Of a stretch of DNA of 64,000 bases, positions 28,696-61,480 are shown piece after piece. The stretch comes from Polaribacter sp. BM10. Lineage in GTDB: Bacteria; Bacteroidota; Bacteroidia; Flavobacteriales; Flavobacteriaceae. The stretch covers positions 1,446,001-1,510,000 of the forward strand of contig NZ_CP019704.1 in NCBI RefSeq assembly GCF_002005425.1, read 5' to 3'. Position 1 is the stretch's first letter. Every line of letters starts with the position of its first letter. Below the pieces are notes generated by a model. The model saw only the letters and a list, made by a program, of their open reading frames with translations, had not been told where the DNA came from and ran no database searches. The position numbers were made by a program, and so were the translations under genes.

Positions 28696-29086
28696 GGGGA
28701 CGACTGGTTTTGACAGCAAGGTCAGTGAATTTGTAAGCATATCGAGTTATGAAATAACACTCGTAAAACCTAATTTCAACTTTTTAAACGGCGAAGATAA
28801 CTACGCTTTAGCTGCATAATTCGAATCATAGTAGAATTAGCCTCGGCACACAAGGTGTGCAAGCTTTATGTCCACGAAAAGCCTTGGTTTATGGCGTTTC
28901 ACTTTTGGGCATCGTAAAAATAAACATAGAAAACCTGTAACTTTGCCAGGTTTTTGAAACTAAAAAAGTTAAGTTTAAAGTGGATTGTTCTTAATCAGCT
29001 TTAAATCGAAAATTAAGAAAGAACTAAATATGTAGAAAGCTTTTTGGCTGCTTGTTTGGACCCGAGTTCGATTCTCGGCGTCTCCA
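28696..29086 (+). ncRNA. ssrA: Transfer-messenger RNA (tmRNA)
   Basis: One-piece tmRNA of about 391 nt. The 5' end GGGGACGACTGG pairs with GTCTCC near the 3' end (29080-29085), with one G-U pair, forming the tRNA-like acceptor stem. The T-arm reads GGACCCGAGTTCGATTCTCGGCGTC. The tag reading frame at 28790-28819 encodes GEDNYALAA and a stop. The CCA end is not encoded (the genome reads CACAAA), so it must be added. With SmpB it frees stalled ribosomes and marks the nascent chain for degradation. Confidence 0.97.
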
Positions 29087-29095
29087 CAAAATTAA

Positions 29096-53916: not shown

Positions 53917-56900
53917 TTATCTCATAATTTTCACATTCATTTCTTCTACCTTTTTATCTGATAAAATTGATGGTGCATTAAATAATAAATCTTCTGACGT
54001 ACCAGTTTTAGGAAAAGCCATCACTTCTCTAATAGAAGCTTTTTTCTCTAAAATCATCATTAATCGATCAACACCCCAAGCAATTCCTCCGTGTGGTGGT
54101 GCACCATATTGAAAAGCTTTATACATTGTTCCTACGCTTTTCATCATTTCCTCTTTATTGTAACCCATATTTTTATAAGTTGCTTCTAAAATTTCAGATT
54201 TGTGTGCACGTACAGAACCTCCGCCAATTTCATAACCATTTAAAATTAAATCGTATTGTTGGGCAATAATTGTTCCTATTTCTTCACCTTCTCCGTTCAT
54301 ATGCTTTTCTAAATCGTAAATTGCTGGCATCGAAAAAGGATTGTGTGTAAATGTCCATCTTCCTTCATCTGTTTTTTCGAACATCGGAAAATCTACCACC
54401 CAAGCTGGTCTTAACTCCTTCGGATTAATCAATCTTAATATTTTTGCCATTTCTTGACGAACAGCGTCTAAAGCTTTATTTGCGGTGGCATAATCTGCCG
54501 CTGAGAAAAATACGATATCTCCAACTTCAGCTTTTGCTTTTTCAATAATTTTCGCAGCAATTTCTTCACCTAAAAACTTAATTATTGGAGATTGTAAATC
54601 GTTTTCATTAACAATAATATACGCTAAACCACCTAAACCATTTTGTTGTGCAATGGCAGTTAAGTTTTCAATTTGCCCTTTAGACATACGCTTATTACCT
54701 TGCTCTTTTGCAGAAACTTTAATGCATTTTACAATTCCGCCTTCTTCTATTGGCTTACTAAAAACCTGAAAAGTTGTGTCTTTTACAATTTCGGTAATAT
54801 CTTGCATTTTCAAACCGTAACGCAAATCTGGTCTATCACAACCATATTTATCCATCGCATCTTTGTAAGTTATTACTTCAAAAGGATGTAAAATCCATTT
54901 TTTACCATAAATTTTTCTCACAACTTCATTAAACATCTTAGTATTTAAATCGATAATTTGCTGCATACTTGCGTATGCCATTTCTATATCTAATTGCGTA
55001 AATTCTGGTTGTCTATCTCCACGAGAATCTTCATCTCTAAAACAACGTGCTATTTGAAAATATTTCTCAAAACCACCAACCATTAACATTTGTTTAAATT
55101 GTTGTGGTGCTTGTGGCAATGTATAAAATGAACCTGCTTGTTTTCTTGTTGGAACAATAAATTCTCTAGCGCCTTCATCTGTACCCGCAGTTAAAATTGG
55201 TGTTTCAATTTCTAAGAATTCTTCTTCATCTAAAATATCTCTAAGTAACTTAATTACTTTATGTCTATTTACTATTGCTTTGCGAACTTCATCATTTCTA
55301 TGATCTAAAAACTTGTATTCAAAACGAACTTTTTCATTACTCTTTGCTGCTCTTTTAATTTCAAAAGGCAACGTTTTTGATAAGTTTAAAATCTCTAAAG
55401 TTGAAGTTTCTAACTCTAACCTACCGGTTCTTAAACCAGCATTATAGTCATCTTCATTTCTTTTTACAACTACACCTCCAACAGAAATTACCGTTTCTGG
55501 TTTTAATTTTACCAATTCATCTAAATTAGGAAAAGTCTCTCTACTTAAACGAACTTGAAAAATTTGATAACTAGAATCACGTAAATCAATAAACATTAAC
55601 TCACCATGATCTCTAACACTTGCTACCCAACCAGATAAAACTACATTTTCTGAAATAGATGCTTCTGATAAATCTGATATTTTATGTGTTCTGTATTCTT
55701 CTTTAATTATGATAGGCGTTTTTTGCAACTCTTGATCATCAGTAATTTTAAGCTGTTTTTCTGTGCTAGTTTTTTGCTTATGGTCTTTTGCTTTATGCTC
55801 TGTACTAACAGCTAAAGACGAATCGCTAAAAACGTTAAGAATTTCTTCACGAATTACTTTCCCTGAAGCTCCCTTACCAATAATTGCAATTACTTTACCT
55901 ACTAAAATTCCAGCTTTTCCTTTGTTTCCGTTTTTAATATCATTTGCAATTGCTTCGTTTTCTGATATTACTTTTAAAACAGCAGCTTTAATTTTATCTT
56001 CTGAAATTGTATTGTTTTCAAAATACGTTTTATAATCAAAACTTGCATCTTTTAAATATGATGAAATTCCGTTCTGCACTAAAACAGAAGTGATTTTATC
56101 TTCTTTAAAAAGCTTAAAAATTTCTATTAAATCATTTACATCATGAATATTTTCGTATTCATCTGCAGCAATATTATTTACTAAGGTTTTAGCAACAAAA
56201 GAAGGATCTTTAATAGCATTATTAAGAGATACAAATGTTTTAGAACGTAAAGAATCTGCCGTAAAAAACTTAGCATCTTGCGGTAAAACTCCGCCTTTAA
56301 TCAAAATAGATTCTACAGCAAAAGGTAAAGAACTAATATCTACATTTATACTTTCTACTACTTGTTTAATACTTACAAAAGGTAAATCTGGTTCTGATAT
56401 AAAACGATAATCTGCTTCAAATTCCTTTTTACGCATTGTTTTGGTTTGCTTTAAATCTGCATCCCATAAAACCGTGGTTTGATCTGGTCTAAACGTTTTA
56501 TTCTCTGTAAAGTAATTAAGTTGTTTTTCAATTTCTTCTTTTAAAGCCTCTACCATAAACTTAAAAGAATTTAAGTTTTTAATTTCGGTTCTAGGATTTA
56601 AAATAGTAGTTCCTTTTTTTCTTAACGAAACAGAAACATCAGATTTAAACTCTCCTTTTTCTAAGTTAGCTTCAGAAACACCTAGATTCTGCACAATTCT
56701 TTGAATATATTGTGCATAAGTAGAGGCATCTTCTATATTTCTAATACAAGGTTCTGTAACAATTTCTATTAACGGCACACCAGCTTTGTTAAAATCTACC
56801 AAAGAAACTTTCTTTTCGTGCATTAATTTTGCAGCATCTTCTTCGATATGCACTTGTGTTAAATCTACCGTAAATTCTGTACCATCGTTTCTAAAACAAG

Positions 56901-57255
56901 AAACTTGTCCATTGGGTATAACAGGATTATGAAATTGAGTTATTTGTATATTTTTAGGATTGTCTGGATATTCATAATGTTTTCTATCCCAAGAAATAAT
57001 TTCATTAGAAAATGTAGAGTTTACAGCTTTACCAAAATAAATCGCTTTTGTAATAGCCTCTTTATTAATTGCCGGCAAAACACCCATTTGACCTGTACAA
57101 ACAGAGCAAATATTGGTATTTGGTATTTCTGTTTCTTCATTAGGACAAGAACAAAATAATTTTGTCTTTGTGTTTAAACGAACGTGTGTTTCTAAACCAA
57201 TTATCAATTCTAAATCGTGTGCTTTTAAAGCATCATTTAATTGCGCTAGTTCCAT
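53917..57255 (-). CDS. Fusion of GatB (amidotransferase subunit) and aspartyl-tRNA synthetase
   Basis: 1112 aa in one open frame. Residues ~14-480 are GatB: IGLETHVRLNTKTKLFCSC (metal-site Cys), VCTGQMGVLP, RKHYEYPDNPKNIQITQ, HIEEDAAKL, NKAGVPLIEIVTEP, and the C-terminal YqeY-like tail KGKAGILVGKVIA. Residues ~481-520 are a polar linker. Residues 521-1112 are a complete bacterial AspRS: OB-fold SGWVASVRDHGELMFIDLRD, class II motif 2 FRDEDSRGDRQPEFTQLD (740-757), a GAD domain, and motif 3 GGIAWGVDRLMMIL (1056-1069). His550 follows R-D, as in non-discriminating AspRS, whereas discriminating forms often carry Leu. The protein would charge Asp onto tRNA and, with GatA/GatC, convert Asp-tRNA(Asn) to Asn-tRNA(Asn). 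Confidence 0.95.
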   Translation of the reverse strand: MELAQLNDALKAHDLELIIGLETHVRLNTKTKLFCSCPNEETEIPNTNICSVCTGQMGVLPAINKEAITKAIYFGKAVNSTFSNEIISWDRKHYEYPDNPKNIQITQFHNPVIPNGQVSCFRNDGTEFTVDLTQVHIEEDAAKLMHEKKVSLVDFNKAGVPLIEIVTEPCIRNIEDASTYAQYIQRIVQNLGVSEANLEKGEFKSDVSVSLRKKGTTILNPRTEIKNLNSFKFMVEALKEEIEKQLNYFTENKTFRPDQTTVLWDADLKQTKTMRKKEFEADYRFISEPDLPFVSIKQVVESINVDISSLPFAVESILIKGGVLPQDAKFFTADSLRSKTFVSLNNAIKDPSFVAKTLVNNIAADEYENIHDVNDLIEIFKLFKEDKITSVLVQNGISSYLKDASFDYKTYFENNTISEDKIKAAVLKVISENEAIANDIKNGNKGKAGILVGKVIAIIGKGASGKVIREEILNVFSDSSLAVSTEHKAKDHKQKTSTEKQLKITDDQELQKTPIIIKEEYRTHKISDLSEASISENVVLSGWVASVRDHGELMFIDLRDSSYQIFQVRLSRETFPNLDELVKLKPETVISVGGVVVKRNEDDYNAGLRTGRLELETSTLEILNLSKTLPFEIKRAAKSNEKVRFEYKFLDHRNDEVRKAIVNRHKVIKLLRDILDEEEFLEIETPILTAGTDEGAREFIVPTRKQAGSFYTLPQAPQQFKQMLMVGGFEKYFQIARCFRDEDSRGDRQPEFTQLDIEMAYASMQQIIDLNTKMFNEVVRKIYGKKWILHPFEVITYKDAMDKYGCDRPDLRYGLKMQDITEIVKDTTFQVFSKPIEEGGIVKCIKVSAKEQGNKRMSKGQIENLTAIAQQNGLGGLAYIIVNENDLQSPIIKFLGEEIAAKIIEKAKAEVGDIVFFSAADYATANKALDAVRQEMAKILRLINPKELRPAWVVDFPMFEKTDEGRWTFTHNPFSMPAIYDLEKHMNGEGEEIGTIIAQQYDLILNGYEIGGGSVRAHKSEILEATYKNMGYNKEEMMKSVGTMYKAFQYGAPPHGGIAWGVDRLMMILEKKASIREVMAFPKTGTSEDLLFNAPSILSDKKVEEMNVKIMR

Positions 57256-58646
57256 TATAAAATATCGTTTAAGAAGTTCGCAAAATGTAATACTTCTGCA
57301 TCATTTTTTTTATCTGCTGTAATTTGTAGACCTGTATTTGTGCCTTTTGGTATTGTTAGTGTTGGCAATTCTCCTAAACTAAAACCAACCGTATAAGCAT
57401 CAGACAAATACATTGCTAAAGGATTGTTTAAACTATCGCCAATTTTAGGCGGATCTTGAGGTGTTACTGGCGATAAAATAATATCTACAGCTTCGAAATC
57501 TTTGCTAAATCTTGCTGAAATTTGATCTCTTAAATTTTGTGCTTTTAAGTAAATTTCATCAGAAAAACCTTGTGATAAAACTTGATTACCACCAACAATT
57601 CTTCTTTTTGTTTCTTCAGAAAATTTTTCTGAACGGGTAATCGAATACGTATCTTTTAAATTTTCTCCTTCTACTCTATCACCATAATTTGTACCATCTA
57701 ATCTAGATAAATTAGAAGCGGTTTCCGCCATTGCAAGCGTATAATATGTAGATACTAAAATATCTGCATCAAAAAAATCTAACTCTTTAACTTCAATTCC
57801 TTTCGATTTTATTTTATCTAAAGTAGCTAAGAAATCATCTTTTATTTCTTTAGAGATTGCATCTGTTTCAATAAAACTCTTAAAATATCCAACAGATTTT
57901 ACATCATTTTTGGTTTCATCAGAAATTAATTCTGATGTATAAGTAGTTTGATCTTTTACATCTTTACCGCTAATTTCATTAAGAATAATTTTGATATCTT
58001 CTATTGATTTTGCAATCGGACCAACACAATCTGTAGAAGATGCATAAGCCATTAAACCGTATCGAGAAATTCTGCCATACGTAGGTTTTAAACCATATAC
58101 TTTATTGTAACCGGCAGGTTGTCTAATAGAACCACCTGTATCGCCTCCAATAGAAAAAACTGTATAATCTTTTGCAACATTTACTGCAGAACCTCCGCTA
58201 GAACCTCCACCAACTAAAGCAGGATTTACAGCGTTTTTTACTGCACCAAAAATGGTGTTTTCTGATGATGAACCATGTCCAAAAGAATCACAATTTTCTT
58301 TAACTAAAGGTATTGCACCTGCGTCTAATAATTTCTGAATTGCAGTTGCTGTGTATGACGATTTGTATTTTTTAAGCAAATTAGAACTCGCCGTTGTATA
58401 GGTTCCTTGCAACATATAAACATCTTTTATACCAAACGGAATTCCTTCTAAAAGACCTATCTTTTCTCCTTTTGCAATCTTATCATCTACATTTTTTGCT
58501 AAATCTAAAGCAATATCATCTAATAACGCATTTACAGTATTATGAGAATTCTGCTTTAACAAATCTAACTTTTCTTGTACCAAAGCTGTACAAGTAATTT
58601 CTTTAGACACCAATTGCTGATGTATTTTTTTTATTTGCGAACTCAT
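57255..58646 (-). CDS. gatA: Glutamyl/aspartyl-tRNA amidotransferase subunit A
   Basis: 463 aa amidase-signature enzyme. It releases ammonia from glutamine for the transamidation. The Ser-cisSer-Lys triad is Lys74 (PFGIKDVY), Ser149 (VGGGSSGGSAVN) and Ser173 (GDTGGSIRQPAG). The C-terminal substrate region has SRYGLMAYASSTDCVGPIAKS. It starts 1 nt after the gatC stop and its stop overlaps the gatB::aspS start by one base (TAATG). Cytoplasmic, forming the GatCAB trimer. Confidence 0.95.
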   Translation of the reverse strand: MSSQIKKIHQQLVSKEITCTALVQEKLDLLKQNSHNTVNALLDDIALDLAKNVDDKIAKGEKIGLLEGIPFGIKDVYMLQGTYTTASSNLLKKYKSSYTATAIQKLLDAGAIPLVKENCDSFGHGSSSENTIFGAVKNAVNPALVGGGSSGGSAVNVAKDYTVFSIGGDTGGSIRQPAGYNKVYGLKPTYGRISRYGLMAYASSTDCVGPIAKSIEDIKIILNEISGKDVKDQTTYTSELISDETKNDVKSVGYFKSFIETDAISKEIKDDFLATLDKIKSKGIEVKELDFFDADILVSTYYTLAMAETASNLSRLDGTNYGDRVEGENLKDTYSITRSEKFSEETKRRIVGGNQVLSQGFSDEIYLKAQNLRDQISARFSKDFEAVDIILSPVTPQDPPKIGDSLNNPLAMYLSDAYTVGFSLGELPTLTIPKGTNTGLQITADKKNDAEVLHFANFLNDIL

Positions 58647-58647
58647 A

Positions 58648-58908
58648 TTAATCTTCTATCACTTTAGCAACTACTAAAAAACCATCTTTTTCTTTCGGAA
58701 AGTTTTCTTTAATTATTTCTTTTTCTGTTAATGAACTTTCTATAACAACATCTTCTCTTAAATCATCTAAAGACACAACATTATTATAATTGACATTGGT
58801 AGCATTATTATTGGCATTTTTAATTACGTCGAATAATTTATTAACCGATTCTGATGGTTTTGCTCCTTTAATACTAGACAAAATGTCTACCGTCATTATT
58901 TTACTCAT
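58648..58908 (-). CDS. gatC: Divergent amidotransferase subunit GatC
   Basis: 86 aa. Only the C-terminal half clearly matches GatC: VVSLDDLREDVVIESSLTEKEIIKENFPKEKDGFLVVAKVIED, similar to the usual 'L-R-x-D-x-x...P-x-x-x-x-G-F-x-x-V-x-x-V' end. The N-terminal ~40 residues (MSKIMTVDILSSIKGAKPSESVNKLF...) do not look like the normal GatC helix. As the first gene of the operon it is coupled to gatA by a 1-nt gap. It should clamp GatA and GatB together; the changed N-terminus could reflect the GatB-AspRS fusion. Confidence 0.8.
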   Translation of the reverse strand: MSKIMTVDILSSIKGAKPSESVNKLFDVIKNANNNATNVNYNNVVSLDDLREDVVIESSLTEKEIIKENFPKEKDGFLVVAKVIED

Positions 58909-58926
58909 CTCTTTAAATTTAGATTC

Positions 58927-58959
58927 AAAAAAAAACCTTCCAAAAATTTGGAAGGTTTT
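58927..58959 (-). terminator. Intrinsic terminator (attenuator) just upstream of gatC
   Basis: On the - strand, AAAACCTTCCAAA (plus 58947-58959), 2-nt loop, TTTGGAAGGTTTT (plus 58932-58944) and then TTTTT: a 13-bp stem with a strong U-tract. It faces gatC and ends about 20 nt before its ATG, so transcripts from any upstream promoter must read through it. The 5' arm AACCTTCC can instead pair with GGAAGGTT (plus 58978-58985). Confidence 0.85.
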
Positions 58960-58989
58960 ATATATTTTTTTGACAACAACCTTCCTTTC

Positions 58990-59037
58990 CTATAAATTAG
59001 GATTATTGAAATTACGATTGCTGTTATTAATTATCAT
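58990..59037 (-). CDS. Asn-rich leader peptide upstream of gatCAB-aspS
   Basis: Fifteen-codon ORF: MIINNSNRNFNNPNL, then TAG. Seven of fifteen codons are Asn. The antiterminator segment GGAAGGTT begins only 4 nt past the stop, where a terminating ribosome would cover it. I infer a sensor of Asn-tRNA(Asn). The trp leader here also has five Asn, so Asn richness alone is weak evidence; the position, the terminator and the operon's product make the case. Confidence 0.65.
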   Translation of the reverse strand: MIINNSNRNFNNPNL

Positions 59038-59055
59038 ATTAACTATTGATATTGA

Positions 59056-59082
59056 CAAATATATGTAGAAATTATGTTACAA
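59056..59082 (-). promoter_or_regulatory. Candidate promoter of the gatCAB-aspS leader
   Basis: On the - strand, TTG (plus 59080-59082), 16-nt spacer, TATATTTG (plus 59056-59063). The -7 box is a full match and the spacing is slightly short. It would start transcription about 13 nt before the leader-peptide ATG. Confidence 0.55.
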
Positions 59083-59440
59083 AACCTTCTTTTTTATCAT
59101 TTTATCTAGCCTTTATGGTATCCGTAAAATATTTAAGATTAATTACATAATTTATAAAATACATCTTGTATTTTATAGATTCATTTAATTATTAGGTATT
59201 AATTAATATCAAAATTCACCATAAAACCACATAAAATAATTAAGTTTATTACAATTATGACGAAATCTTAAAAAACCTAAATCTTAAAATATAAGTTTTA
59301 AGCGACTTTTATCTAAAAGGTTTTATAAAACTGATTTATAGAAACCAACAATCCCTTATAAAGTCATTTTTAAGCGATTTAAGACACTTTTAAGAAATCA
59401 ACAAATGTTGATAATTTTCATACCAAATCGCTAAAAACTA
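59083..59440. other. AT-rich intergenic region with repeats, between gat leader and gyrB
   Basis: Apart from the leader elements, this stretch holds no gene that I can support. It contains two copies of a TTTTTAAGCGA-like sequence (near 59296-59304 and 59368-59378), a reversed half-copy AAATCGCTAAAA (near 59426), and a perfect dyad ATCAACA-AA-TGTTGAT (59397-59412) about 30 nt upstream of the gyrB promoter. No DnaA boxes were seen. Confidence 0.4.
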
Positions 59441-59470
59441 TTGAAAATTAGACTGAAAATTGTAAATTTG
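59441..59470 (+). promoter_or_regulatory. gyrB promoter
   Basis: TTG (59441-59443), 19-nt spacer, TAAATTTG (59463-59470): a full match to the Bacteroidota primary promoter. The expected 5' leader to ATG 59543 is about 65 nt. Confidence 0.8.
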
Positions 59471-59524
59471 AGTTTACTGAAATTCGTATTTGTAATTGCG
59501 ATTTTCATCAAAAATTAAAATTAA

Positions 59525-61480
<1,956 letters not shown>

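Follow-up and report, generated by a model that had tools for sequence, protein, structure and literature searches.

The question raised by this locus is how an operon predicted to supply Asn-tRNA could be controlled by the level of its own product. We looked at the gatC-gatA-gatB::aspS operon of Polaribacter sp. BM10 and at the DNA ahead of it in the window, as we call the whole stretch of 64,000 nucleotides that was analysed. The three genes were assigned as follows:

58648..58908, minus strand: gatC (TIGR00135, 25.2 bits, below the cut-off of 47.1; assigned from its position and from relatives in 78 of the 80 best loci)
57255..58646, minus strand: gatA (TIGR00132, 430.6 bits, its best family, below the cut-off of 481.1)
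53917..57255, minus strand: gatB::aspS fusion of 1112 aa (NF004012 and NF001750, both above cut-off)

In the fusion, NF004012 scored 402.4 bits over residues 14-472 and NF001750 711.7 bits over residues 520-1110.

Leader parts upstream of gatC

An initial annotation of this DNA had described, ahead of gatC, a -7 box, a 15-codon ORF with seven Asn codons and an 8-nt segment starting 4 nt past its stop. All of them were present where it had placed them, and the following parts were delimited:

59080..59083, minus strand: possible -33 element TTTG (weak evidence)
59056..59063, minus strand: -7 box TATATTTG, of the Bacteroidetes type
58990..59037, minus strand: leader ORF MIINNSNRNFNNPNL with its stop, from the ATG at 59037 to the TAG at 58990
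59016..59024, minus strand: segment 1 ACAGCAATC, within the early Asn codons, pairing with segment 2 (protector hairpin 1:2)
58988..59002, minus strand: stop-codon hairpin, CCTA 59001-58998 with TAGG 58992-58989, plus T59002:A58988
58972..58985, minus strand: segment 2 GGAAGGTTGTTGTC, made of the antiterminator strand GGAAGGTT and the segment-1 partner GGTTGTTGT
58985-58978, minus strand: GGAAGGTT, the antiterminator strand, starting 4 nt after the leader ORF stop
58981-58973, minus strand: GGTTGTTGT, the segment-1 partner, pairing with ACAGCAATC
58950..58957, minus strand: segment 3 AACCTTCC, common to antiterminator and terminator, the complement of GGAAGGTT
58927..58959, minus strand: intrinsic terminator, segments 3:4 and T tract, with a CCTTCC/GGAAGG stem (GGAAGG at 58941-58936)

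The ORF reads ATG ATA ATT AAT AAC AGC AAT CGT AAT TTC AAT AAT CCT AAT TTA TAG, that is, 15 sense codons of which seven are for Asn. The full complementarity claimed between GGAAGGTT and the 5' arm of the terminator, AACCTTCC, was confirmed. The terminator had been given as 13 bp ending about 20 nt before gatC: the stem is there with a tract of nine T (58935-58927), and the gatC ATG (58908) follows 18 nt further on, whereas 13 bp would need a loop of 2 nt and the stem predicted by folding has 10-11 bp closed by a loop of 4 nt. Folding of the 128-nt leader gave z = -4.61. The neighbouring gene on the other side (59543-61480), taken to be gyrB, is divergent from the gat operon, which rules out that the terminator closes an upstream gene read leftwards; this orientation is known for the window only.

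Since AAT codons are frequent wherever a genome is rich in A and T, we considered whether chance or base composition alone could produce such an arrangement. Dinucleotide-preserving shuffling of the 634-nt intergenic region gave no comparably Asn-rich short ORF in 4000 trials (criteria: ATG start, 10-30 codons, 7 or more Asn, Asn fraction of at least 7/15), and 38 of 78 relatives among the best 80 loci share the leader, as described below, which leaves this explanation with hardly any credit.

Two known RNA families were looked for and set aside. A cmscan search of positions 57000-60500 of the window with the Rfam 15 families, allowing E values up to 1, matched no T-box riboswitch; its only two matches, to Phe_leader (RF01859) and one per strand, were rejected at 27.9 bits for a gathering threshold of 55. 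Elsewhere in the window, a tmRNA gene with the tag GEDNYALAA lies at 28696-29087.

Conservation of the leader in relatives

Species genomes were scanned for the fusion, and the best 80 gatB::aspS loci, which are the closest relatives only, were retained; gatC was located in 78 of them (not in L065 and L073). By a motif search with mismatches allowed, the leader was present in 38 of these 78 loci and was not found in the other 40. As detection was based on motifs, divergent leaders could have been missed, but on these counts from the best 80 loci the operon does not always carry the leader. The 38 leader-bearing relatives and the window were aligned in 39 rows. The motif TATnTTTG was used to cut the rows and CCTTCC anchored the pair counts, so that the presence and identity of the -7 box and the occurrence of CCTTCC in 39/39 rows are partly by construction.

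The leader ORF was intact in all 39 rows, with 14-17 sense codons including 6-10 Asn codons, and its ATG lay 10-20 nt after the -7 box in every row. The consensus peptide is M-x-x-NNNN-[R/N/L]-NFNNPN-x, the stop is TAG in 38 of the 39 rows, the gap from the stop to GGAAGG ranges from -1 to 5 nt (39/39) and the CCTTCC of segment 3 is invariant. Loss of the Asn codons in close relatives, which would have refuted the attenuator, was thus not observed in any leader-bearing row. The start of transcription remains inferred, and a TTG was seen 14-23 nt ahead of the -7 box in only 12 of the 39 rows, so that the -33 element is weak.

Identity and codon comparisons were made on 38 rows, as L052 was left out because of an indel. 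Mean pairwise identity reached 0.96 in both the -7 box and segment 3, 0.92 in segment 2 and 0.88 across the ORF; it was 0.47 upstream of the box, 0.37 just past it and 0.57 before gatC, and in gatC itself 0.85 over the first 60 nt and 0.61 over the following 120 nt. Over codons -2 to -12 (38 rows), pairwise differences amounted to 784 synonymous and 533 non-synonymous when the variable codon -8 was excluded, and to 787 and 949, respectively, when it was included. The distance from segment 2 to gatC is 246 nt in L041 and 238 nt in L112, where extra sequence intervenes between terminator and gatC, versus 70-118 nt elsewhere.

Alternative pairings of the leader RNA

When folded separately, the protector 1:2 (at least 6 segment-2 bases paired upstream) could form in 39/39 rows and the antiterminator 2:3 (at least 5 of 6 core pairs) in 38/39, the exception being L047, where the 2:3 core is absent from the predicted fold. 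The terminator 3:4 (6 of 6 core pairs) could form in all 39 rows and was part of the full-length minimum-energy fold in each of them. A loss of the GGAAGGTT/AACCTTCC pairing in relatives, the other observation that would have counted against the attenuator, was therefore not seen in the leader-bearing rows, L047 apart. The protector hairpin on the early Asn codons and the stop-codon hairpin are, like the fact that the leader is not tied to the operon, additions to the initial annotation.

We also looked for the compensatory changes that had been suggested as a check. They were found in the terminator and in the stop-codon hairpin; the antiterminator core is near-invariant and showed no covariation, with its first base pair lost in 6 of 39 rows. 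Changes in the terminator stem are compensatory at both ends, the pairs below the core being GC in 31 rows, AT in 5 and GT in 3, and those above it AT in 23, GC in 10 and others in 5. The CCTA:TAGG pairs of the stop hairpin are kept in 38 or 39 of the 39 rows at each of the four positions (anchored on these letters), and one C-G pair has become U-A on both sides in two rows, L041 and L108, which belong to different clades of the tree. RNAalifold run on a MAFFT alignment chose the antiterminator and the stop hairpin, with a small covariation term of -0.41, a choice due to misalignment of the terminator loop. Pairs were for this reason counted from motif anchors, which favours the anchored bases.

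For the protector, segment 1 paired with its own segment 2 gave -9.93 kcal/mol versus -9.53 kcal/mol for swapped duplexes, and 55 of 10000 permutations were as good (kinship ignored). The central base of segment 2 varies to some extent with codon -8: it is G in 15/15 rows with Arg, A in 15 and G in 5 of the rows with Asn, and mixed in the four rows with Leu. A joint change of segments 1 and 2 appears, from these comparisons, only moderately supported.

These pairings bear on another possibility, namely that the product of the ORF is a small peptide with a function of its own, followed by a plain terminator setting a fixed low read-through, without any switch. The peptide is indeed conserved, with its NFNNPN core, and a small gene may well have a conserved terminator behind it. 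However, segments 2 and 3 are 92-96% identical and can pair with each other in 38/39 rows, a feature for which a plain terminator has no use, and in both L041 and L108 the pair change turned a Pro codon into Ser along with the partner base, as if RNA pairing outranked the residue. We regard a small peptide with a plain terminator as very improbable.

Proposed mechanism

We propose that the leader works as a ribosome-mediated (leader-peptide) attenuator of transcription. It would sense how far tRNA(Asn) is charged and thereby control an operon for tRNA-dependent Asn synthesis; we hold this reading with high, if not complete, confidence. The attenuator already suspected in the initial annotation is supported by the ORF, the three alternative pairings and their conservation, all of them observed by sequence and folding, as is the lack of a canonical AsnB in the 46 fusion genomes described below; the stalling of the ribosome and the response to Asn are inferred, without transcript or starvation data. 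Wherever they can be tested by sequence or folding, the anatomical features of a ribosome-mediated attenuator are met.

When Asn-tRNA is plentiful, the ribosome would reach the stop codon and cover segment 2, 3:4 would form and transcription would end before gatC. That a terminating ribosome would cover segment 2 rests on the generally known size of its footprint. Were the ribosome to leave after the stop, or the message to stay untranslated, 1:2 would form and termination would follow as well. When Asn-tRNA is short, the ribosome would stall at the early Asn codons (4, 5 and 7) and cover segment 1; segment 2, thereby freed, would pair with the emerging segment 3 before segment 4 is made, no terminator would form, and gatC-gatA-gatB::aspS would be transcribed. 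The fused AspRS, taken as non-discriminating, would then make Asp-tRNA(Asn), which GatCAB would amidate to Asn-tRNA(Asn). As the product would be the very molecule sensed, the loop would be closed. We infer that only the early Asn codons are useful for stalling, because segment 2 would be covered by a ribosome stalled further along, at the last of them. Codons 11, 12 and 14, also for Asn, are nevertheless largely conserved; they do not fit the stalling model and may perhaps be kept for the RNA.

Operon enzymes and asparagine supply

The gatB::aspS fusion was found in 46 of 299 Flavobacteriaceae (hand count; G170 partial). Canonical AsnB (NF006949) was present in none of these 46 genomes versus 223 of the 253 others (lists compared by hand, kinship not controlled), and AsnA, found in 22 of the 299, was likewise absent from the 46. 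The exclusion of canonical AsnB from fusion genomes indicates that tRNA-dependent amidation probably replaces it. Gene families and AsnB exclusion both point to an operon that would supply Asn-tRNA, in the absence of any data on enzyme activity. With 0/46 against 223/253, the role of the fusion becomes directly testable.

A subset of 39 genomes, 19 of them with the fusion, was looked at for other sources. AsnRS was above cut-off in 38 of the 39, including 18 of the 19 fusion genomes. The fusion genome without AsnRS over the family cut-off is that of Flavicella marina (L090), whose gat operon has no leader and may be its main source of Asn-tRNA. No AsnB-type match at E <= 1e-60 was obtained in 11 of the 39 genomes, all of which carry the fusion; such a match was obtained in the other 8 of the 19 fusion genomes, and of these only the one in G002 was shown to be non-canonical. 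With these 8 and with AsnRS in 18/19, Asn need not come from the gat operon only. If the proposed control is true, it would explain how cells that also bear AsnRS avoid making, before there is a need for it, an enzyme that should mischarge tRNA(Asn).

The tRNA specificity of the enzyme is inferred. A second, stand-alone AspRS of about 40% identity occurs in at least 8 of the 46 fusion genomes, that of the window included. His at the P. aeruginosa H31 position and Gly at the G83 position mark a non-discriminating AspRS, and Lys at G83 a discriminating one. By motif, the fused AspRS has His at the H31 position in 84/84 fusions, where the stand-alone enzyme from the genome of the window has Lys; at the G83 position, the window's fusion has Asp (by eye), neither Gly nor Lys. 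A U1-A72 pair is needed in tRNA(Asn) for GatCAB according to PMC4206432. It was seen by eye in 7/7 tRNA(Asn) sequences, from 3 fusion and 4 non-fusion genomes; the search pattern was too strict, matching 9 of 39 genomes and yielding tRNA(Asn) from 7. Being present in 4/4 non-fusion genomes too, the pair does not tell the two kinds of genome apart and was rejected for that purpose.

Spread of the leader

We searched the 299 Flavobacteriaceae with a sequence-only model of the leader, a strong match being defined as E < 1e-20. Strong matches were obtained in 29 genomes, of which 28 carry the fusion; in the 29th, G124, gatC stands right behind the leader and the contig ends soon after. No strong match was found in 18 of the 46 fusion genomes. 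Placed on the fusion tree, the leader shows 7 changes among 79 labelled rows, and we infer from this distribution that it is a part lost or gained several times. Leaderless loci have a different sequence upstream of gatC.

The fusion also occurs in 9 of 395 genomes of another family of the class. No leader of the gat type was found before gatC in the 8 readable of these 9 loci, and four of the loci (L195-L198) have weak Asn-containing ORFs only, on which no terminator test was made.

Comparison with known systems

The trp, his, phe, leu, ilv and thr operons of Proteobacteria have leader-peptide (ribosome-mediated) attenuators. The gat leader is like them in its short ORF rich in codons for the product amino acid, in the 1:2, 2:3 and 3:4 pairings and in a stop placed so that a terminating ribosome would cover segment 2. 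It differs in its Asn specificity, in its Bacteroidota host and in an ORF that begins only 10-20 nt past the -7 box; moreover, enzymes of those operons make the free amino acid, whereas those of the gat operon should charge the sensed tRNA by amidation.

A T-box binds tRNA directly and has no leader peptide. In Clostridium acetobutylicum, the charging state of tRNA(Asn) is said to control amidation by antitermination. Both this T-box and the gat leader would thus act on amidation through antitermination governed by tRNA(Asn) charging, the gat leader with a leader peptide and without a T-box match. The initial annotation knew of no described attenuator sensing Asn-tRNA for a transamidation operon. 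This stands for a leader peptide, as no Asn leader-peptide attenuator was seen among the papers listed in searches of the open-licence literature (PMC4833913 included); it does not stand for control in general, since T-box control of tRNA-dependent amidation has already been reported in C. acetobutylicum (Saad 2012, 2013; cited in PMC4206432). PMC2494555 found no T-box ahead of the amidotransferase genes of its set, and PMC6685928 concerns mistranslation and not an Asn leader.

Closer in kinship, leader-peptide attenuation has been inferred before amino-acid biosynthesis operons of Flavobacterium psychrophilum, that is, in the same bacterial family and mechanism class as the gat leader; the conserved 5' elements given in its section 19 stand before pheA, hisG, ftsY, acsA, alaS and rimP, with neither a gat operon nor Asn among them (PMC9723704). 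In 2010 the authors of PMC2965389 knew of demonstrated leader-peptide systems in no bacteria other than Proteobacteria and Actinobacteria. Bdellovibrio bacteriovorus, which lacks asparagine synthetase, combines AsnRS, GatCAB and a non-discriminating AspRS for tRNA-dependent Asn synthesis, and the survey of the paper on it flags some Bacteroidetes also; in contrast with the operon studied here, its passages on this pathway describe neither a GatB-AspRS fusion nor control by a leader (PMC4206432).

Judged by comparison, where its support is strong, and with no experiment behind it, the putative gat attenuator is a new specificity and a new target of a known mechanism. If true, leader peptides would be known to sense asparagine as well as other amino acids, and a tRNA-dependent amino-acid synthesis would be controlled through its own end product, read on the ribosome.

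Related leaders before ilvD and asnA

Twelve of the weaker matches of the leader model were read: six are Ile/Val-type leaders before ilv genes, one is an Asn-rich leader before asnA and five are not recognisable as leaders. The Ile/Val-rich leaders before ilv genes carry a similar CCTTCC/GGAAGG module. We then looked at ilvD, which was found in 22/22 leader-bearing genomes searched. By a simple pattern, a terminator of the gat type was present in 13 of them and absent from 9, and each of the 13 terminators is preceded by an Ile/Val-rich peptide:

L221-L223, L226, L227, L229, L230, L232-L234, L236, L240 and L242: Ile/Val-coded leaders before ilvD

The ilvD leader of the window's own genome (L242), MKSFLNIISITSVIVIITV, has the same order of parts as the gat leader, with Ile/Val codons in place of Asn, and the terminator regions of the two share 83% identity over 41 nt.

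A uniform test, demanding an Asn-rich leader and a terminator in the upstream region, was passed by 35 of the 78 gat loci (best 80 loci), where the motif search had given 38, and by 6 of 20 asnA loci (22 genomes have asnA), or 7 Asn-rich leaders if L209 is added. It was passed by 0/20 asnB loci (of 223 genomes with the gene), 0/19 asnS loci (of 38) and 0/22 ilvD loci, which again speaks against chance. A looser scan gave one weak TTG-start ORF before asnB, in L159. As judged by these upstream regions, Asn leaders are found before two unrelated Asn-supplying systems, the gat operon and asnA. With ilvD leaders coded for Ile/Val, and gat and asnA leaders for Asn, codon content follows the pathway.

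This coding matters for a variant of the attenuator in which the signal would be a general slowing of translation, or competition by mischarged Asp-tRNA(Asn), and not a shortage of Asn-tRNA(Asn). For the mechanism, any stall before the middle of the ORF would be enough, and Asp-tRNA(Asn), the intermediate of the established amidation pathway, should be made by the gat operon itself. Against such a signal, the stall region is Asn-coded in 39/39 rows, as it is before asnA, while before ilvD it codes for Ile/Val; we consider the variant unlikely and retain the sensing of Asn-tRNA(Asn) shortage.

Taking gat and asnA jointly, a broader reading can be offered only tentatively, as we give it somewhat less than an even chance: Asn would be an attenuation amino acid of Flavobacteriaceae in its own right, with Asn-coded leader attenuators that arose at least twice (gat and asnA, before which two sometimes stand in tandem), the gat leader would perhaps be a recoded ilvD module, and the loop would be closed in genomes that have lost canonical AsnB. 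Recoding may have gone from the Ile codons (ATY) of the ilvD module to Asn codons (AAY). The ilvD and asnA leaders offer comparisons for how the specificity of an attenuator may change by recoding.

Among the asnA leaders, the computed antiterminator of L202 is weak in the stretch tested (-2.9 kcal/mol). Two Asn-rich ORFs in series were seen by eye before asnA in L209 and L211, and apparently also in L202 and L205. Finally, L137 (G193) has an Ile-rich leader ahead of a gene that looks ilvE-like.
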